This document shows, piece after piece, positions 25,948 to 58,953 of a stretch of DNA of 64,000 bases. The notes beneath the pieces were generated by a model. That model was not told the origin of the DNA. It did not search any database and saw only the letters and a program-made list of their open reading frames with translations. Each line of letters opens with the position of its first letter. Positions within the stretch are counted from its first letter, which is position 1. This DNA comes from Crenalkalicoccus roseus (lineage in GTDB: Bacteria; Pseudomonadota; Alphaproteobacteria; Acetobacterales; Acetobacteraceae), in assembly GCF_004761865.1 (NCBI RefSeq), contig NZ_SJDM01000006.1, positions 62,001 to 126,000 of the forward strand, given 5' to 3'. The position numbers and the translations under genes were made by a program.

Positions 25948-26311
25948 AGGGTTGCGGGGATTCGCAAGGAGGGAAGCGGCACGCTTCAGCCATGTTCGCG
26001 CTGCGTTCAGGATGGTGGGCAAACTCCTTTCCGGGCGTTGCCAGGCGGCCACACCCGGCGGCGGGGAGGGTGCCATGAGATCATCGCCTGCGGGTTTGGA
26101 TCCCCGTATGTCTCCGCCTGTCACGGCACGATTCGGCTTCGCCCGGCGCCTCCCCAAAGCCCCTGCGGATCGCGATGCCGCGCGAAGACCTGCCCCGCGG
26201 CGCATCCTATGATGCGAACCTCGGATGCCGGCCGCGTGACCGCCCTCCATCCGCGCGGAACGCGGCGGCGCCGCGCAGGCCAGCCCACCCCGTCGCCTCC
26301 CCGGAGCATGT
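25948..26311. other. Intergenic stretch between nrdA control region and repeat C
   Basis: Nothing protein-like is visible on either strand, and no RNA gene could be recognised. Small open frames here show arginine-rich composition typical of random GC-rich sequence. The left end contains the distal nrdA upstream region. The right end abuts the 94-bp dispersed repeat. Confidence 0.4.
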
Positions 26312-26405
26312 TCCGTCCGCTCCGGCTCATGGAAGATGCTCCGGCTCGTTGATGGCGCGAGTATCTTCACCCGTTCAGGAGAGGCCACCCGAACGGGACC
26401 GCTCT
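26312..26405 (-). repeat. 95-bp dispersed repeat, copy C
   Basis: Read on the minus strand it runs AGAGCGGTCCCGTTCGGGTG through CCTGAACGGGTGAAG and ATCAACGAGCCGGAGC to a GGACGGA end. The same order of blocks occurs at 50094-50188 (plus) and 57585-57679 (minus). The ATG of the methyltransferase gene starts 12 bp after its edge, with the ribosome-binding site in between. It may therefore provide a promoter or simply flank the gene. Confidence 0.7.
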
Positions 26406-26416
26406 AGGAGATCGTC

Positions 26417-27244
26417 ATGGAGCTGGAGCAGCGCGTCGTCGCCCACTACAGCCGCGGCAACCTGCTGGCCGCGATGCTGGAGGCGGTCCGCGCCGCCGGC
26501 GGAGATCCCGACCATCCGAGCGAGGAGGCGCTCGCCGAACTCGGCGAGTTCCATACCCGCGGCCGCGAGGCGACGGCGGAGCTCGGGCGCGCCCTGGCCC
26601 TCGCGCCGGGCGAATCGGTGCTGGATGTCGGCAGCGGCATCGGGGGACCGTCGCGGCACCTGGCACGGGCGCATGGCTGCCATATCACCGGCATCGACCT
26701 GACGGAGGAATACTGCCGCACGGCCACGGCGCTGGCCGAGCGCCTCGGCCTCGCCGACCGGGTCGCCTACCGGCACGGCTCGGCCCTCGCCATGCCCTTC
26801 GCCGACGCCTCCTTCGACGCCGCCTACACGCAGCACGTGGCGATGAACATCGCCGACAAGCCGCGCCTCTACGCCGAGATCGCGCGGGTGCTGAAGCCCG
26901 GCGGGCGCTTCGGCCTCTACGACCTGCTGCAGGGTCCGGGCGGAGAGCCGCACTACCCCGTCCCCTGGGCGCGCGACGCGGCGACGAGCTTCCTGATCAC
27001 GCCCGAGGCGCTGCGCGACCTGCTCGTTCAGGCCGGCTTCGCGATCCTCTCCTGGCGCGACACCGGCGCCGAGGTGCGCGCCTGGCTCGACGAGCTGCGC
27101 GCGCATCAGCGGCGCGGGGAGGCCGTCGCCTCGCCGCTCCCCGTGCTGTTCGGCGCGGACTTCCCGAACATTGCCCGCAACCTCGCGCGCAACCTGGAAG
27201 AGGGCCGCGTGGTGCCGGCCGAGGTCATCTGCCGCCGGGGCTGA
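26417..27244 (+). CDS. SAM-dependent methyltransferase (class I)
   Basis: A 275-residue Rossmann-fold methyltransferase. The SAM-binding motif I is VLDVGSGIGGPSRHLA, followed by the acidic GIDLTEEY and the substrate-side QHVAMNIADK. The pattern is closest to the sarcosine/dimethylglycine or tocopherol-type small-molecule methyltransferases rather than rRNA or protein enzymes. Glycine betaine synthesis is therefore one possibility, but no partner gene is present. AGGAG lies 6 nt before the ATG at 26417. The gene stands alone, flanked by a dispersed repeat upstream and a convergent small secreted-protein gene downstream. Confidence 0.85.
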   Translation: MELEQRVVAHYSRGNLLAAMLEAVRAAGGDPDHPSEEALAELGEFHTRGREATAELGRALALAPGESVLDVGSGIGGPSRHLARAHGCHITGIDLTEEYCRTATALAERLGLADRVAYRHGSALAMPFADASFDAAYTQHVAMNIADKPRLYAEIARVLKPGGRFGLYDLLQGPGGEPHYPVPWARDAATSFLITPEALRDLLVQAGFAILSWRDTGAEVRAWLDELRAHQRRGEAVASPLPVLFGADFPNIARNLARNLEEGRVVPAEVICRRG

Positions 27245-45216: not shown

Positions 45217-45611
45217 GCCCCGCCGGCGCCTCGGCCGGAGAGCGCCGGCGGCGAGCCGGCCCCCGCGGCCTTCGCGACGGATGGCGAGGCGGAGGCGGCG
45301 CCCGGCGCCGGCCCGCGGCATGATCCGCCCGGCGGATCACGCCCCGCCGGGCGAGCGAGTCACCGCGCTGGCGATCCCGCCTCCGCGGAAACGGCTCCGG
45401 GCCACACCCGGCCGGGCGCTGCTCGTGGCACGGTGCCTTGCGGATCCCGCCGCGGCCCCGGCGGCCGGGGCGCGCCGTTCCGGCGCAGCGGCGGCGCGGC
45501 CGCTTTCCTTCTTGTGAAGAACGCCGGTGAGGCGCTCGCCCGTTCGGAGGCTGGAAGGTGGTGGCTGCGACCTCGAAGGCCGGGTCCCCGCGCCCCGCCA
45601 TCGGGGGTGTC
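45217..45611. other. 395-bp intergenic region with repeat-like sequence
   Basis: No protein-like frame or RNA gene is visible. Positions 45318-45393 begin GCATGATCCGC and end GGCGATCCCGCCTCCGCGGA. They align over their length with the inverted-repeat element at 47311-47388; the ends match well and the middle less so. Next to it, GCGGAAACGGCTCC (about 45386) is the reverse of the GGAGCCGTTTCCGC piece at 54459-54472. The rest is very GC-rich. Confidence 0.4.
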
Positions 45612-47310: not shown

Positions 47311-47388
47311 GCGTGATCCGCGAAGGTGAACTCACTCCCGCCCCTCGTTGGACGACCGCCGCGGCGATTCCGCCTTCGCGGATCACGC
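47311..47388. repeat. 78-bp element with perfect 16-bp inverted ends
   Basis: The ends GCGTGATCCGCGAAGG (47311-47326) and CCTTCGCGGATCACGC (47373-47388) are exact reverse complements, with 46 bp between. A degenerate relative lies at 45318-45393. It may be a small mobile-element remnant or a terminator-like fold between the barrel gene and the transaminase gene. Confidence 0.55.
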
Positions 47389-47423
47389 GCTAGACTGCGC
47401 GAGAGAGCCGAGGAGAACCCGCC

Positions 47424-48818
47424 ATGTCCCCGCCCCGCAATTCCACCGCCGCGCGCGACATCGCCTATGCGCTGCATCCCTACACGGACCACAAGGCGCA
47501 TCTGCAGCACGGCCCGCTGGTGATCAGCCGCGGCAAGGGGGTGCGGGTGTTCGACGACCAGGGCAAGGAGTACATCGAGGCGGTGGCCGGCCTCTGGTGC
47601 GCCTCTCTCGGCTTCGACAACGAGCGGCTGGTGGAGGCGGCGACGCGGCAGATGCGCCGGCTGCCCTTCTACCACAGCTTCACCGCCAAGTCGCACGAGC
47701 CGCTGGTGGACCTGGCCGAGATGCTGGTCGAGCGCGCGCCGGCGCCGATGAGCAAGGTGTTCTTCGCCAACAGCGGCTCCGAGGCCAACGACAGCGTCGT
47801 CAAGATGCTGTGGTACATGCACAACGCCATCGGCAAGCCGCGGAAGAAGAAGATCATCGCCCGGCTGAAGGGCTATCACGGCATCACCGTCGCCGCCGCC
47901 TCGCTCACCGGCCTGCCGGCGAACCACAAGCTGTTCGACCTGCCGCTGCCGGGCTTCATCCACGTCTCGACGCCGCACCACTACCACGGCGCCCGCCCCG
48001 GCGAGTCCGAGGAGGAGTTCGCCACCCGCCTCGCCGAGGAGCTGGAGCAGGTGATCGAGCGCGAGGGGCCGGAGACCATCGCCGCCTTCTACGCCGAGCC
48101 CTTCATGGGCGCGGGCGGCGTCATCATTCCGCCCGCCACCTACTTCGAGAAGGTGCAGGCGGTGCTGAAGAGGCACGACATCCTGTTCTGCGCCGACGAG
48201 GTGATCGCCGGCTTCTTCCGCACCGGCAGCTACTGGGGCAGCCAGACCTTCGGCATCCAGCCCGACATCGTGGTCTGCGCCAAGGCGCTCTCCGCCTCCT
48301 TCCTGCCGATCTCGGCGGTGATGGTGAACGAGCGGGTGTTCCAGGGCATCGCCGAGGGGTCGAGCAGCATCGGCACCTGGGGCCACGGCTTCACCTATTC
48401 CGGCCACCCGGTGCCGGCGGCGGTCGCGATCGAGACGCTGAAGATCTACGACGAGATGGACATCCTCTCCCACGTCCGCCGCGTCGGGCCGTACATGCAG
48501 GCGCAGCTCCGCGAGCGCTTCGCCGGCCACCCGCTGGTCGGCGAGGTGCGCGGCGTCGGCCTGGTCGCCGGCGTCGAGCTGGTGGAGGACAAGGCGACGC
48601 GGAAGAACTTCGACCCTGCGAGGAAGGTCGGGCCGCGGCTGGCGAAGCTCGGCGAGCAGCACGGCGTGATCCTGCGCGCCATGGTGAACGACAGCATCGG
48701 CTTCTCCCCGCCCCTGATCATCACCGAGGCCGAGATCGACGCCATGCTCGACCGCTTCGGCGCCGCGCTCGACGCGCTGGCGGTGGAGCTGCGGCGCGAG
48801 CGCATCGCCGCGGTTTGA
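47424..48818 (+). CDS. Aspartate aminotransferase family (class III) omega-transaminase
   Basis: A 464-residue PLP-dependent class III aminotransferase. The PLP-binding region is FFANSGSEANDSVVKM and the Asp pairing with the pyridine nitrogen is in LFCADEVIAGFFRTG. The Schiff-base Lys is in VVCAKALSASFLPISAV, followed by WGHGFTYSGHP. It is closest to omega-amino acid:pyruvate, taurine or putrescine-type transaminases that use pyruvate as acceptor. The amino donor is not known. Its stop codon overlaps a TTG start of an O-antigen ligase family gene, so the two are on one transcript. Confidence 0.92.
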   Translation: MSPPRNSTAARDIAYALHPYTDHKAHLQHGPLVISRGKGVRVFDDQGKEYIEAVAGLWCASLGFDNERLVEAATRQMRRLPFYHSFTAKSHEPLVDLAEMLVERAPAPMSKVFFANSGSEANDSVVKMLWYMHNAIGKPRKKKIIARLKGYHGITVAAASLTGLPANHKLFDLPLPGFIHVSTPHHYHGARPGESEEEFATRLAEELEQVIEREGPETIAAFYAEPFMGAGGVIIPPATYFEKVQAVLKRHDILFCADEVIAGFFRTGSYWGSQTFGIQPDIVVCAKALSASFLPISAVMVNERVFQGIAEGSSSIGTWGHGFTYSGHPVPAAVAIETLKIYDEMDILSHVRRVGPYMQAQLRERFAGHPLVGEVRGVGLVAGVELVEDKATRKNFDPARKVGPRLAKLGEQHGVILRAMVNDSIGFSPPLIITEAEIDAMLDRFGAALDALAVELRRERIAAV

Positions 48819-50125
48819 CCGCGCCGGTCCCGGCACGGCCGGGCGGCGGCGACCCCGCGCTGCCGCTCGGCGTCGCGCTGGCCCTCGCGCCGGTCGCGGT
48901 GGTGCTGCAATCCAAGGCGCTGGCGCCGATCGCCACCGCCGCGCTGCTCGCCGCGGTGCTGCTGCACCGCCGCCGCCACGGCGCCTGGCCCTGGCCGGAG
49001 GGCGCCGCCTTCTGGGCCGCGCTCGCGCTCCTCGCCTGGGCCGCCGTGACCGCGGCCTGGGCACCGGAGCCGCCGCGCGCCCTCCTCACCTCGGCCCAGA
49101 TCGGCGGCTTCATGGCCCTCGGCGCCGCCGCCGCCCGCGCCGTGGCGGCGGCGGAGGCGGCAGCGCGGGCGCGGCTGATGCGCCTCGCCGCGCTCGGGCT
49201 CGGGCTCGGGCTTGCGGCGGCGGCGTTCGACGCAGCGACGGGCCATGCGTTGCGCGCCGGCGTGCGCGGGCTGAGCGAGGTGCCGCCCACCCTCGCCTAC
49301 GGACTCAAGCCGGCGGCCTCGGCCATGGCGCTGTGGCTGCCCCTGGTCGCGGCGGCGCCGCTGCCGCGCTGGCTGCGCGGCGCGATCCTCGCCGCGGGGG
49401 CGCTGGTGCTGCTGGCGCTGCCGGGGGAGTCCCCGAAGCTCGCCGTGCTGGCGGCCGGCGTCGCGGCGAGCCTCGCCTGGCTGGCGCCGCGCCATGGCGT
49501 GCGCGCGCTCGGCCTCGCCGCCGCGGCGGCGGTCCTGCTGATGCCGCTGCTCCTCGGCCCGGTGCTGGCGCGAGGGGTGCCGGCCGGCGACCTGCCGGCC
49601 TCGGCGGCGCACCGCCTGATGATCTGGGACTTCACCGCCGCGCGCATCGCCGAGCGGCCGCTGGCCGGCTGGGGGATGGAGGCGAGCCGTGCCATTCCCG
49701 GCCACGACCTGCCCGCCGGCGAGGCGCGGCTGGCCCGCTTCGGCCTGACCCATCCCGGGGTGGAGCCCTGGCTGGCGCAGGCGCAGATGCTGCCGCTGCA
49801 TCCCCACAACGGCGCGCTGCAATTGTGGCTGGAGCTCGGCCTGCCGGGGGCGGCGCTGGGGGCGCTGCTGGTGGCGCTGCTCGGCCTCGCCGCCGCGCGC
49901 GCGCCCCGGCCCGGCGTGGCGGCGGCGATGCTGGCGAGCGGCCTCGTCACCGCCCTGCTCAGCTTCGGCGCCTGGCAGGAATGGTGGGTGGGCGCGCAGC
50001 TCCTGGCGGTGGCGGCGGCGGCCGGGCTGCCGGCGAGCGGGCCGGAGCGGATCGCCGAGGGCCCGCACCGGCGGGAGGCGCGGACCCCGCTCCAGAGCGG
50101 ATCCCGTTCGGGTGGATTCGCCTGA
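48815..50125 (+). CDS. O-antigen ligase family protein
   Basis: A 436-residue polytopic membrane protein with about 10-12 hydrophobic segments and a large periplasmic loop. The Wzy_C/WaaL signature is in the loop and next helix (RLMIWDFTAARIAERPLAGWGMEAS and LPLHPHNGALQLWLELGLPG). Such proteins join O-antigen or other glycans to lipid A core or polymerise them. The TTG start at 48815 overlaps the TGA of the transaminase gene; no better start exists before the first helix. The last ten codons lie inside a dispersed repeat, so the C-terminal tail is repeat-derived. Confidence 0.85.
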   Translation: MTAPVPARPGGGDPALPLGVALALAPVAVVLQSKALAPIATAALLAAVLLHRRRHGAWPWPEGAAFWAALALLAWAAVTAAWAPEPPRALLTSAQIGGFMALGAAAARAVAAAEAAARARLMRLAALGLGLGLAAAAFDAATGHALRAGVRGLSEVPPTLAYGLKPAASAMALWLPLVAAAPLPRWLRGAILAAGALVLLALPGESPKLAVLAAGVAASLAWLAPRHGVRALGLAAAAAVLLMPLLLGPVLARGVPAGDLPASAAHRLMIWDFTAARIAERPLAGWGMEASRAIPGHDLPAGEARLARFGLTHPGVEPWLAQAQMLPLHPHNGALQLWLELGLPGAALGALLVALLGLAAARAPRPGVAAAMLASGLVTALLSFGAWQEWWVGAQLLAVAAAAGLPASGPERIAEGPHRREARTPLQSGSRSGGFA

Positions 50126-50188
50126 ACGGGTGAAGCGGCTCGCGCACTCAACGAGCCGGAGCCTTTGTCGTGAGCCTGGGCGAACGGA
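50094..50188 (+). repeat. 95-bp dispersed repeat, copy A
   Basis: It starts AGAGCGGATCCCGTTCGGGT, continues with CGCCTGAACGGGTGAAG, CACTCAACGAGCCGGAGC and CGTGAGCCTGGGCGAACGGA. Copies B (57585-57679) and C (26312-26405) share these blocks in the same order. It contains the stop codon of the O-antigen ligase gene. A family-2-like piece (GGAGCGGATCGCCGAGGG) precedes it at about 50044. Confidence 0.75.
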
Positions 50189-50248
50189 CCATGCTGCAAG
50201 GCGCCGAAGCCGCCGCGGGCTGGGCCGGGCGGAAACGGCCCCGGCGCC

Positions 50249-52322: not shown

Positions 52323-52442
52323 GGCGCGCCGCCCCTCGGGCGAGGGACCGTCTCCCCTCCCCCGCGCGCCGCGGCAGCCCGCCCTTCCGGCCACGCGCGC
52401 GGAGATGGCGCCAGCCCGTCCTTCGCGGGGACGGGGTCATGC

Positions 52443-52477
52443 TCCCGGCCGTTTCCAGCCTTCCGCGCTCCGCTCTG
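52443..52477 (-). repeat. Short dispersed repeat (family 2)
   Basis: On the minus strand this reads GAGCGGAGCGCGGAAGGCTG followed by GAAACGGCCGGGAG. It closely matches 53627-53658 and 54400-54430. It sits at the 3' side of the small protein gene ending at 52481. Confidence 0.5.
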
Positions 52478-52480
52478 GTG

Positions 52481-53764: not shown

Positions 53765-54397
53765 ATGCGGGTGCTGCTGATCGAGGATGATGCGCTGCTG
53801 CGCACGGCACTGGCCGAGAGCCTGATCGAATCGGGCATCGAGCCGGATGCGCTGTCCAATGCCGAGGACGCGCTGATCCTGCTCGGCGCCGGTCAGGTGC
53901 CTGACGTGCTGGTCACCGACATCGATCTCGGCAGCGGGCTGAGCGGCTTCGACCTGATGGACATCGCCCGCAACCGCCATCCCGACGTGGCGGTGATCCT
54001 GATCAGCGGCGCTCCTCCGGCGCCCGACATGACCGGTCCCGGCCGCCATGCCCGCTTTCTGCGCAAGCCCTTCCGGCCGGAGGAGCTGGTTGCCGCCATC
54101 CTTGAGGCCGGCCGCCGCAAAGGGGACGAGGCGCCGGCAACTGTGGGGGAGGCCCCGGCGTTCCCTCAGCGCGCCGCAATGCCGCGGCCCGAAGCAAGGA
54201 GCAGCCACGTGGACAAGGACCGGATCGAAGGCGCCGGCAAGCAGGTCAAGGGCGCGGTGAAGGAAGGGCTCGGCAGCCTGACCGGCGACGAGAAGATGAA
54301 GGCCGAAGGTAAGGCCGACAAGGCCGAGGGCAAGGTCCAGAACACCGTCGGCGGCATCAAGGACTCCGCGCGCGAGGCGCTGGACAAGGACCGCTAA
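53765..54397 (+). CDS. Receiver domain protein read through into a CsbD stress domain
   Basis: The frame from ATG 53765 encodes 210 residues. Residues 1 to about 120 are a receiver domain with acidic pocket LIEDD, phospho-Asp in LVTDIDLGSG, the switch region VILISGAPP, and Lys in FLRKPFRPEEL. After a loose linker the same frame continues, without a stop, into a complete CsbD-like domain (residues 149-210, VDKDRIEGAGKQVKGAVKEG to the end). This is either a true fusion or a receiver gene whose stop codon has been lost. No effector domain other than CsbD is present, and no cognate kinase is adjacent. Confidence 0.75.
   Translation: MRVLLIEDDALLRTALAESLIESGIEPDALSNAEDALILLGAGQVPDVLVTDIDLGSGLSGFDLMDIARNRHPDVAVILISGAPPAPDMTGPGRHARFLRKPFRPEELVAAILEAGRRKGDEAPATVGEAPAFPQRAAMPRPEARSSHVDKDRIEGAGKQVKGAVKEGLGSLTGDEKMKAEGKADKAEGKVQNTVGGIKDSAREALDKDR
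54209..54397 (+). CDS. CsbD family stress protein, internal start within the receiver frame
   Basis: A 62-residue CsbD-like protein can start at GTG 54209, in the same frame as the preceding receiver. AAGGAG lies 7 nt upstream, the best-spaced ribosome-binding site in the area. The product would begin exactly where free-standing CsbD proteins begin (M/VDKDRIEGAGKQ). CsbD proteins are small, hydrophilic and stress-induced, with unknown mechanism. Most likely both a long and a short product are possible, or only the short one represents CsbD. Confidence 0.6.
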   Translation: MDKDRIEGAGKQVKGAVKEGLGSLTGDEKMKAEGKADKAEGKVQNTVGGIKDSAREALDKDR

Positions 54398-54399
54398 GG

Positions 54400-54501
54400 C
54401 GGATCGCGGACGGCTGGAAGCAGCCGGGAGAGCGATTCTGCTTCGCAGGCAAGAGGCTGGAGCCGTTTCCGCGGGCACGGGCGGGTGAAAACGGCTCCAG
54501 C
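54400..54501 (+). repeat. Family 2 repeat with a 13-bp inverted repeat
   Basis: The piece GGATCGCGGACGGCTGGAAG (54401-54420) matches 53631-53646. It is followed by exact inverted arms GCTGGAGCCGTTT (54456-54468) and AAACGGCTCCAGC (54489-54501). The hairpin lies just after the receiver-CsbD gene and could end its transcript. Confidence 0.5.
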
Positions 54502-56819: not shown

Positions 56820-57302
56820 ATGACGATCAAGGTCGGCGACCCCATTCCCTCGGCGAAGCTGATGCAGGCCACCCCGGACGGCCCGAAGGAGGTCTCGACG
56901 GAGGAGCTTTTCCGGGGGAAGACGGTGGTCCTGTTCGGCGTGCCGGGGGCCTTCACCCCGACCTGCTCGGCCAAGCACCTGCCCGGCTTCGTGCAGCATC
57001 ACGAGGCGCTGAAGGCGAGGGGCGCGGATCTCGTTGCCTGCATGGCGGTGAACGACGCTTTCGTCCTCGCCGCCTGGGCCAAGGATCAGGGCGCCGGCGA
57101 CACGGTGACGATGCTGGCCGACGGCAGCGCCGAGTTCACCCGCAAGCTCGGCCTGGAGCTCGACCTGACCGCCCGCGGCCTCGGCATCCGCTGCCAGCGC
57201 TTCGCCCTGGTGGCGAAGGACGGCAAGGTGGCGCACATCGCCGTCGAGGCGCCCGGCGCCTTCGAGGTGAGCAAGGCCGAGGCGGTCCTGGAGGCCCTGT
57301 GA
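56820..57302 (+). CDS. Peroxiredoxin (Prx5/AhpC-TSA type)
   Basis: A 160-residue thiol peroxidase that reduces hydrogen peroxide and organic peroxides. The peroxidatic Cys49 is in VPGAFTPTCSAKHLPGF, the signature of the Prx5 group. The conserved Arg is in RGLGIRCQRFALV. The glutaredoxin or thioredoxin partner is not encoded here. The ATG at 56820 gives the family length. Its stop codon overlaps the GTG start of the next small gene by 4 bp. Confidence 0.93.
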   Translation: MTIKVGDPIPSAKLMQATPDGPKEVSTEELFRGKTVVLFGVPGAFTPTCSAKHLPGFVQHHEALKARGADLVACMAVNDAFVLAAWAKDQGAGDTVTMLADGSAEFTRKLGLELDLTARGLGIRCQRFALVAKDGKVAHIAVEAPGAFEVSKAEAVLEAL

Positions 57303-57577
57303 CCCCCTTCTCCGCGGCGAGCTTCGCCTGGCAGGCCGGCACGGTGTTCGCCCTGCGCAGCCTCCAGCTCATGATGAACCCGGCGACGGCGCAGCTCCGG
57401 CTCGCGGAATACGCGGTGGAGAAGCAGCGCGCCTTCGCGGCCGGAGCGGTGAAGGCGACGCAGGCGGCGCTCGCGGGCGCCGATCCGGCAGCGGTCATGG
57501 CCGCCGCCCTCAAGCCCGCGCATCTGCGGGTGCGCGCCAATGTCCGGGGCCTCGCCAGGCCGCGCAAGCGGCGCTAG
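57299..57577 (+). CDS. Small phasin-like protein
   Basis: A 92-residue helical protein starting at GTG 57299, which overlaps the peroxiredoxin stop codon (GTGA). The sequence SLQLMMNPATAQLRLAEYAV, then EKQRAFAAGAVKATQAAL and a basic tail LARPRKRR resembles the short phasin-like family in Alphaproteobacteria sometimes labelled antifreeze protein. Phasins coat polyhydroxyalkanoate granules, but this assignment is by pattern only. Its stop codon lies 7 bp before repeat copy B. Confidence 0.6.
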   Translation: MTPFSAASFAWQAGTVFALRSLQLMMNPATAQLRLAEYAVEKQRAFAAGAVKATQAALAGADPAAVMAAALKPAHLRVRANVRGLARPRKRR

Positions 57578-57584
57578 AGCGTTC

Positions 57585-57679
57585 GCCGTTCGCCCTGGCT
57601 CACGGCAAGGGCCCAGCCCATTGAGCGTGCGGGCCTCTTCACCCGTTCAGGCGAGGCCGCCTGAACGGGATTCGCTCCA
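57585..57679 (-). repeat. 95-bp dispersed repeat, copy B
   Basis: Read on the minus strand it has GAGCGAATCCCGTTCAGG, CTCGCCTGAACGGGTGAAG, CACGCTCAATGGGCTGGG, and CGTGAGCCAGGGCGAACGG. It aligns with copy A without gaps over 95 bp and about four in five positions. A family-2-like piece (GGATCGCGGCCAGCCGGAAG) follows at 57683. Confidence 0.75.
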
Positions 57680-57729
57680 GCGCGGATCGCGGCCAGCCGG
57701 AAGCGTGGACCCGAAGGGCCGGGGCGGCG

Positions 57730-58953
57730 TCAGGCAGCCCCCGCCCGCCGCCCCTGCCGGCGCAGCAGCAGCCCGACCAGCGCCAGCTGCACCAGGTTGA
57801 CGAGGATCCCCGCCTCCCACGCCACGGCGTAATTGCCGAACCGGTCGTGGAGCGCCCCCGCGAGCCAAGCGCCGAAGGCCATGCCGGAGAGGCTGAGGAA
57901 GAGCAGCATCGGCATCCGCCAGGCCGCCTCCCGCGCCGGGAACAGCTCCCGCACCGCCAGCATGTAGGCCGGCACGATGCCGCTGAAGCCGAGGCCGTAG
58001 GCGGCGGCGACGAAGAACAGCCCGGCCTCGTCCTGGGTCATCAGGAAGCCGGCCATGCCGACCACCTGCGCCATGCTGCCGAGCAGCACGGTGGGGAGGC
58101 CGCCGATCCGGTCCGAGACCCAGCCCCAGAACTGCCGCGCCAGGAAGGCCGAGACCAGCAGCACCGACAGCATCATCGCCCCGCGCGAGGCGGCGATGCC
58201 GAGATCGGTGCAGAAGGCGACGAGATGCGCCGCCGGCATCGCCATCGGCACGCAGCAGAGGAAGGAGGCGATGGCGAGCAGCGCCAGGGCGAGGTTCGGG
58301 TGCATGCCGAGCACCGGCGCCCCCGCCCGCGGCCCCGCCCACGGGCTGCCCGGCGGCGGCAGGGCGGGGGCGGGCCGCAGCACCAGCAGCGCCAGCGGCA
58401 CCGCGACCGCCAGCACGAACGCCGCATAGACCTGCATGGTCCGCTGCCAGCCGATGCCGGCGACGGCGCGCTCGAGCAGCGCGGGCCACAGCGCGCCGGC
58501 GATGTACTGGCCGGAGGAGACGAGGGCGAGGGCGGTGCCGCGCCTGCGGTCGAACCACTGCGACACGTAGGCCATCATCGGCGGGAACAGCGCCCCGTTG
58601 CCGAGGAAGCCGACCAGTAGCCCGTAGCCGACCAGGAGCTGCCACGCCGCCCCGCCCGAGGCGAGGACGAGGCCGGCAGAGACCATGGCCGCGCCGGCGA
58701 CCGCGACCGAGCGTGTGCCGATCCGCCCCGAGAGCCAGCCCATCAGGATCCCGCCCGCCCCCGCGCCGAGATAGACGAGCGAGGAGGCGAGCGCCGGCAC
58801 CGCCCGCGCCTCGCCGAGATCGGCCGCGATCGGCTTCAGCGCCACCACCACGATCAGCGGCGCCCCGAAGGCGACGGAGAGGATGGCGACGGCGGTGACG
58901 GCAACCACCCAGGAGGCGCGCGATTCGATGCTGGCGCTGCGGTCCGGCCCCAT
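57730..58953 (-). CDS. MFS transporter (OFA/monocarboxylate-like)
   Basis: A 407-residue permease with about 12 hydrophobic segments. The loop after helix 2 is MGWLSGRIGTRSVAVAGAA, and a second such loop is FWGWVSDRIGGLPTVLLGS. Overall it resembles oxalate/formate or monocarboxylate-type MFS carriers. The substrate is unknown. The ATG at 58953 gives a short polar start before the first helix; a longer frame upstream is Pro/Arg-rich and unlikely to be translated. It is divergent from a peptide-type binding protein gene, with 160 bp between. Confidence 0.86.
   Translation of the reverse strand: MGPDRSASIESRASWVVAVTAVAILSVAFGAPLIVVVALKPIAADLGEARAVPALASSLVYLGAGAGGILMGWLSGRIGTRSVAVAGAAMVSAGLVLASGGAAWQLLVGYGLLVGFLGNGALFPPMMAYVSQWFDRRRGTALALVSSGQYIAGALWPALLERAVAGIGWQRTMQVYAAFVLAVAVPLALLVLRPAPALPPPGSPWAGPRAGAPVLGMHPNLALALLAIASFLCCVPMAMPAAHLVAFCTDLGIAASRGAMMLSVLLVSAFLARQFWGWVSDRIGGLPTVLLGSMAQVVGMAGFLMTQDEAGLFFVAAAYGLGFSGIVPAYMLAVRELFPAREAAWRMPMLLFLSLSGMAFGAWLAGALHDRFGNYAVAWEAGILVNLVQLALVGLLLRRQGRRAGAA

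Follow-up and report, generated by a model that had tools for sequence, protein, structure and literature searches.

Crenalkalicoccus roseus carries a non-coding repeat of about 107 bp, too short for a transposase gene and present in about a hundred copies. It is probably a MITE that an IS630 (Tc1/mariner)-type transposase mobilises and inserts at the TA of CTAG. Many copies end exactly on the stop codon of an adjacent gene, a stop that insertion by this route would leave in place.

Copies of the Repeat in the Window

The window, the whole stretch of 64,000 nucleotides that was analysed, contains three full-length elements of subfamily A, at 26301-26407 on the + strand (ends CCGG...CTAG), at 50092-50199 on the - strand and inverted relative to the other two, and at 57574-57680 on the + strand. 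They sit where a sequence-only reading of this DNA had placed them, and a blastn search of the whole genome with the first copy recovers the others at E values of 2.5e-22 and 1.1e-9. That reading described a unit of 95 bp; the repeat stands, and its length has to be corrected to about 107 bp with CTAG-like ends. A covariance model scores the three copies at E values of 5.6e-15, 6.8e-14, and 2.8e-15, all three being among the copies from which it was built.

Gene borders given here come from a purpose-written codon-scoring caller and not from published annotation. The first copy ends 9 bp upstream of the start, at 26417, of a methyltransferase gene (26417-27244, +), and its terminal CTAG merges with the AGGAG of the ribosome-binding site of that gene. 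Its hairpin 1 (26302-26343, +; arms 26302-26316 and 26329-26343) overlaps the left terminal inverted repeat with its left arm, and its hairpin 3 (26370-26397, +; CCCGTTCAGG...CCCGAACGGG), the most conserved helix of the element, is the inner inverted pair CCCGTTC/GAACGGG that had been recognized earlier. An O-antigen ligase gene (Wzy_C, 48815-50125, +) runs 34 bp into the second copy, where its stop TGA occupies 50123-50125; the end tetranucleotide of this copy has decayed to CCAG. The 57574 copy had been placed 7 bp after a phasin-like gene, but its first CTAG (57574-57577) contains the stop TAG (57575-57577) of the gene at 57299-57577 (+), which as called here has no Pfam match at E<=0.001, so the phasin label is not supported.

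Two further elements had been missed. A full-length copy of the sister subfamily B lies at 54394-54500 on the - strand; it starts with CTAA on the + strand, and this CTAA contains the stop TAA (54395-54397) of a gene (53765-54397, +) with matches to Pfam Response_reg and CsbD. A weaker, decayed B-type partial lies at 52371-52478 on the + strand (nhmmer E 4.6e-6 in the window).

Family Size and Distribution

The consensus of the element starts CTAGAGCAT and finishes GATCCGCTCTAG. Searched by blastn with the first copy, the genome (4.43 Mb, 127 contigs) returns 41 places, one of which is a palindromic self-overlap. With a covariance model built on 33 copies, the count is 103 at E<=0.01 or 84 at the stricter E<=1e-4; some of these are subfamily B, to which the low-scoring places in part belong. 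The genome-wide non-coding family proposed from the window is thus borne out by 84 places; the idea had been held to fall if the genome contained no further copies, and the genome search clearly finds them. Subfamily B has the length and ends of A and a similar layout with different stems, and a B query finds at least 40 places in the genome, these being the best 40 of 114 candidates.

For the counts below, 71 of 89 covariance-model matches in the DNA examined from this genome score at least 60.8 bits, and 65 were taken as A; left out were the B-like L075, L083, L020 1554, and L063 1455, the contig-end L043 and L077, and all lower-scoring matches. The B set comprises the 35 nhmmer matches that cover at least 86 of 107 positions, minus a duplicate copy in overlapping loci and an A copy; L031, L040, L161, and L022 are weak rows among the remaining 33.

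Of 59 other Acetobacteraceae genomes, 6 have blastn matches to the repeat, among them G016 with 12 matches and G035 with one. Genome G048 has 38 left ends at up to one mismatch against 0 for a reversed-pattern control, and in the named genomes an exact pattern matches 6 times, each time in Plastoroseomonas hellenica LMG 31523. With stricter filters, the R1 query on 133 genomes of the class at E<=1e-4 finds the repeat in the own genome and in G093 (3 places) only. A class-wide pattern search with CTAGAGCATNNTC was rejected as a measure of spread: 51 of 142 genomes match, but the reversed-pattern control is similar in many, and the majority of 20 such places read in 5 genomes are unlike the element.

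Hairpins of about 50 bp that start CTAGAGCAT occur in G068, of another alphaproteobacterial family (loci L125-L128), and may be remotely related to the first half of the repeat. A plasmid collection gives no match for A or B. The second half alone (hairpins 2-3) of the G048 form matches two Komagataeibacter saccharivorans plasmids at 84.7% (NZ_CP023037.1, 178950-179008; NZ_CP036405.1, 33576-33634), as if element halves can travel apart.

Ends and Target Word

Both subfamilies end CTA/GAGC...GCTC/TAG. The TA at positions 2-3 is kept at 94 of 196 ends (98 elements), and 90 of these 94 read NTAG, where N is C in 76, T in 7, G in 4, and A in 3; in G048, CTAG is present at 48 of 58 element ends. 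Many copies have decayed ends and stems. CTAG is a rare word in this DNA: base composition predicts 155 occurrences in the 64-kb window, which has 10, about 15 times fewer. In 408,038 bases of the own genome, a sample with overlaps counted and enriched for element loci, there are 162 CTAGs, which fall in A/B elements (80), other CTAGAGC ends (25), intergenic sites (38), stop codons (10), and coding sequence (9).

A row of single CTAGAGC[AG]GATCGC ends (L205-L214) resembles the right end of B, with no full B seen there, and may represent a short B-related element.

Docking on Stop Codons

The end TAG or TAA of 54 of the 98 elements is the exact stop codon of the adjacent scored gene, which gives 56 docked sides (54 TAG, 2 TAA) with two elements docked on both sides. 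Where an intact YTAR end faces the 3′ end of a gene, it lies exactly on the stop at 51 of 68 sides. For genes whose 3′ end lies no more than 12 bp from an element, the stop is TAG in 60 of 71, compared with 74 of 329 for the other genes (Fisher p 8e-23). The share on stop codons exceeds that of background CTAGs (10 of 57; p 4e-6), so target availability alone may not explain docking. On 5 sides with a decayed end, that of the O-antigen ligase among them, the gene continues for 34 or 42 bp within the element until it meets an internal TGA, and a single element of the 98 is called inside a gene (L076). Among 88 elements with both neighbours called, the flanking genes are convergent in 49, co-directional in 35, and divergent in 4, against 6, 25, and 10 for intergenic gaps of at least 30 bp in the window (p 6e-6).

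Docking also occurs in the other genomes, at 15 of 29 elements in G048, 6 of 6 in G016, 2 of 4 in G023, and 1 of 2 in Plastoroseomonas hellenica; these counts derive from 30 G048 loci (of the 38 left ends), 6 of G016, 3 of G023, and 6 of Plastoroseomonas hellenica, and keep elements with at least 81 aligned positions that are not cut by the end of the locus. The length of open frames was rejected as evidence for docking, since a control frame is open for 100 codons at 60 of 94 sides and the stop frame at 70 of 94, and the G048 docking count by open frames was likewise dropped. Open-frame length being uninformative, the docking claim rests on codon-scored genes and family models. Ten docked proteins, hand-chosen out of 56, all have Pfam matches. 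The model is reached in full at the last residue of a 3-hydroxybutyryl-CoA dehydrogenase (position 292 of 292) and of an enoyl-CoA hydratase (254 of 254), at residue 266 of 267 of an SDR (236 of 236), and at residue 511 of 514 of MetW (193 of 193), so the stops of these docked genes look native.

Proposed Route of Insertion and Nesting

The transposase would act on the GAGC ends and insert the element at the TA of a CTAG, with duplication of TA. In this genome of 73% GC, CTAG is nearly absent from coding sequence, and the available targets would mostly be intergenic sites and stops that read xxC TAG. The element starts with a G, and because this terminal G would follow the duplicated TA, as seen from the end sequence, it would rebuild TAG; the upstream gene would keep its stop and the insertion would be silent; insertion at a TAA stop would turn it into TAG on one side. 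Silent docking together with the loss of harmful insertions would account for the bias toward gene ends. The TA duplication is suggested by the ends and by nested elements, and we infer that insertion took this route at each locus.

Every insertion would leave new CTAGs at its ends, on which later elements or insertion sequences could dock, producing A-CTAG-B tandems and mosaics. Among the seven A/B pairs whose members lie within 60 bp of each other, five have an overlap of exactly 4 nt; three of these share CTAG, and two share GCAG or CCGG. The coordinates C40:147275-147381 and 147378-147467 give a sixth 4-nt overlap. L147 of G048 has the second half of the element twice, repeated over a CTAG, and at L036 a foreign hairpin seems, by eye, to occupy the inner CTAG that separates the units.

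A third palindromic repeat, D, of about 88 bp (GCGTGATCCGCC...GATCGGGCGCCAG) has ends without GAGC and often adjoins A or B over a common CYAG-like word (L026, L216, L043, L030, L072, L022, L009). Two weak D matches lie in the window on the + strand, at 47311-47393 (nhmmer E 0.005), which ends at the CTAG at 47390-47393, and at 45318-45404 (nhmmer E 1.4e-4); better copies adjoin A elements outside it, for example at L026 and L009. At L201 (C1:46500-50500), a decayed IS630-like gene continues directly into the second half of an A element whose first hairpin is absent.

Folding and Compensatory Changes

In 33 own copies, 82.2% of cells are paired under a three-hairpin model, and 52 cells are changed on both sides, compared with 33.9 +- 5.1 after shuffling (0 of 500 shuffles reach 52); two of five measures, the count of both-side-changed pairs and that of pair types, stay within the shuffles. 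The compensatory signal in the own copies alone is modest. It is clear across genera. When 17 copies from three other genera are joined with 22 own copies, the compensatory changes that the earlier reading had proposed to look for amount to 94 both-side cells against 44.3 +- 5.6 (0 of 500), in a test that kinship among copies inflates and whose cells are not independent events. The covariation score of these 39 copies is 0.228 against 0.140 shuffled (0 of 500), and slid controls score much lower. Across the four genera, 94.4% of the cells of hairpin 3 are paired, and compensatory changes occur; for one pair, 21 copies, every one of them own, have U-A, and 16 copies, every one from a relative, have A-U.

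Other measures of folding differ among copies. RNAalifold on A1 gives 19 pairs with a weak covariation term of -0.15, and the folding z-score is -3.3 and -3.8 in two window copies and 0.15, no signal, in the third. The terminal inverted repeats CTAGAGC/GCTCTAG are paired in 81.0% of cells in the 33 copies and in 89.6% in the 39 copies across genera; covariation of this outer 7-bp pairing is not above shuffles, and similarity beyond the outer 7 bp is weak. In A, an inner CGAGC could pair with the end GCTC, but covariation there does not exceed that of the shuffles. The predicted fold of B consists of two hairpins with GAGC near both feet, so that A and B each seem to consist of two successive palindromic units.

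Candidate Transposases

IS630 is known to prefer the TA in CTAG, reportedly an observation by Tenzen and Ohtsubo in 1991. This preference also appears in excerpts of PMC6811581, and insertion by IS630 and Tc1/mariner elements duplicates TA, according to excerpts of PMC2170065. A search of 7 genomes for the IS630-family domain (DDE_3) finds matches in 5. G035 has two IS630-family copies of 1047-1048 bp (L171, L181) with GAGCGGTTTTC at both ends between CTA and TAG, and G023 has one copy (L172) that starts CTAGAGCGGTTTCC, with the left end GAGCGGTTTCC. The own genome has a 44-bp mini-element (L198), again between CTA and TAG, that starts GAGCGGTTTCC and finishes GGAAACCGCCC. Compared with the 11-mer GAGCGGTTTTC, this mini-element matches at 10 positions, the left and right ends of A at 7 and 8, and those of B at 9 and 7. 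Past the shared GAGC, 3-5 of the next 7 bases agree with GAGCGGTTTTC, a likeness of element and IS ends that appears moderate.

Three ends of the form CTAGAGC[GC][GC]TTTTC occur in the own genome (L197, L199, L200); at L199 and L200, but not at L197, the end coincides exactly with the stop of a scored gene. L200 continues with 36 residues that resemble the C-terminus of IS630 and match IS630 proteins at E 5e-7 to 4e-6 without composition correction, a comparison in which unrelated frames of the query loci reach 2e-7. At L197, the likeness consists of about 10 residues at a contig end. A stricter comparison with IS630 proteins gives no match at E<=1e-4 for any of the three, and the DDE_3 search also lists none. 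L200 and L197 are thus weakly supported as possible IS630 ends, and the IS630 identity of L199 finds no support in either the stricter or the laxer protein comparison. These weak matches make the IS630 reading less sure and its IS5 rival slightly more so. No complete IS630 copy with GAGC at both ends was found in the own genome, and an own IS630 gene that adjoins an A element (L019) has different ends. In G048, whose copies look youngest, none of three DDE_3 loci has paired GAGC ends, and G016 and G058 have no DDE_3 match.

Alternative Explanations

The gene-end position and the conserved stems could also mean that the repeat is a functional 3′-end module, its hairpins kept as terminators on both strands or as protectors of mRNA ends, with the stop codon included. 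The excess of convergent over divergent flanks and the compensatory changes in well-paired hairpin 3 agree with such a role; loss of insertions on promoter sides would give an equal orientation bias, docking by the 5′ end is about as frequent as by the 3′ end (25 and 31 sides), and the ends and stems of many copies have decayed. Copies inspected by eye have no T run after hairpin 3, and positions 57300-57900, the sole stretch scanned, contain no terminator-like site. We consider this module unlikely on the whole. A combined version, in which transposition brings a rebuilt TAG together with hairpins that end or stabilise transcripts on both strands and whose stems are under selection, seems quite unlikely; were it true, a selfish element would, going by the copies examined, have come to fix where at least 56 genes finish at the 3′ side in one genome, and would do likewise for other genes in related genera. 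The covariation of three hairpins would also suit a trans-acting or riboswitch-like RNA family, but the compensatory cells represent few events in many copies, with one T-A to A-T exchange separating the own genome from three other genera, and the elements adjoin varied genes on either strand in an insertional arrangement. Rfam assigns only a tRNA to the window at gathering score and nothing to the first copy at E<=1, and such an RNA family is extremely improbable. The earlier reading had left open a MITE or a structured RNA element: the MITE is favoured by the terminal inverted repeats, the TA/CTAG target, the tandems with 4-nt overlaps, and the IS630 ends of G035, while the RNA keeps the compensatory hairpin changes in its favour and has against it the lack of an Rfam match and the nearly equal docking by either end.

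If the element is mobile, its mover need not be of the IS630 type. An IS5-family transposase (IS427/IS711-like, with a YTAR target and TA duplication) could have moved it: the own genome has a DUF4096 insertion sequence of 864 bp (L099, C1:257329 region; ends GCCGCGTGGACAAACC) with TA flanks within CTAA or CTAG, and ends of this type adjoin the CTAG or CTAA of five contig-end elements (L016, L043, L077, L090, L092). IS711 likewise uses YTAR and favours Bru-RS repeats, as excerpts of PMC2266754 describe. Yet the terminal GCCGCGTGGACAAACC matches the IS630-type 11-mer at 4 of 11 positions, and in a survey of DUF4096-bearing insertion sequences the IS5-type element looks like a second user of the target that docks on existing copies, which leaves IS5 as a decidedly improbable mover. 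Palindromic units, a tandem and mosaic layout, and a tetranucleotide at the feet of hairpins also recall repeats of the REP/REPIN type, whose mover is a RAYT (Y1 tyrosine) transposase. This mover was rejected for the own genome, which has no Y1_Tnp (PF01797) match in a search whose control was positive in 5 of 14 genomes, and the element has CTAG and GAGC at both ends instead of a one-sided GTAG; a REP/REPIN origin is highly improbable.

Implications

If the IS630-type MITE is the right reading, the repeat would be a transposon that has found a safe harbour through CTAG, confined by the codon use of its host largely to stops and spacers, and the terminal G that rebuilds the stop would complete a simple route to harmless insertion. 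Insertion sites, nested arrays, and the docking of insertion sequences would become predictable, and more than 50 genes would form a natural set for measuring the effect of inserting a hairpin at the 3′ end.

Comparison with Known Systems

Literature word searches with partial coverage returned, among the matches listed, no description of the family in Roseomonas or Acetobacteraceae and no MITE that docks on stop codons. REPINs are palindromic intergenic units. GTAG/CGTC REPs are so too (excerpts of PMC3733652), and REPs and REPINs differ from the present repeat in that this genome has no RAYT match and the element has CTAG at both ends. IS630 and Tc1/mariner elements share with it the CTAG preference and, in the G035 copies, the GAGC ends, while the element has no transposase. 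MITEPsy1 of Pseudomonas syringae is likewise a short MITE, of 100 bp, that inserts at CTAG or YTAA; unlike the present element, it has a reported 4-nt duplication, a likely parent in ISPsy2 of the IS5 family, and few copies, as excerpts of PMC3189936 describe. Bru-RS1 and Bru-RS2 of Brucella, likened here by description, are palindromic docking sites for IS711 with a YTAR target, and the parts of PMC2266754 at hand do not propose IS711 as the mover of Bru-RS.

The closest known system in size, number, TA target, and IS630 link, likened by description alone, is RUP of Streptococcus pneumoniae, which measures 107 bp, has about 110 copies and no gene, gives a folded transcript, and has terminal inverted repeats like those of IS630-Spn1 with TA at the insertion site (excerpts of PMC3049150 and PMC2229807). 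RUP belongs to an AT-rich Firmicute, whereas the present repeat belongs to GC-rich Acetobacteraceae and has two subfamilies. For RUP, these excerpts describe insertion into or near insertion sequences and not docking on stop codons. The family is best read as another MITE of the RUP-like kind, with docking on stop codons as its notable trait.
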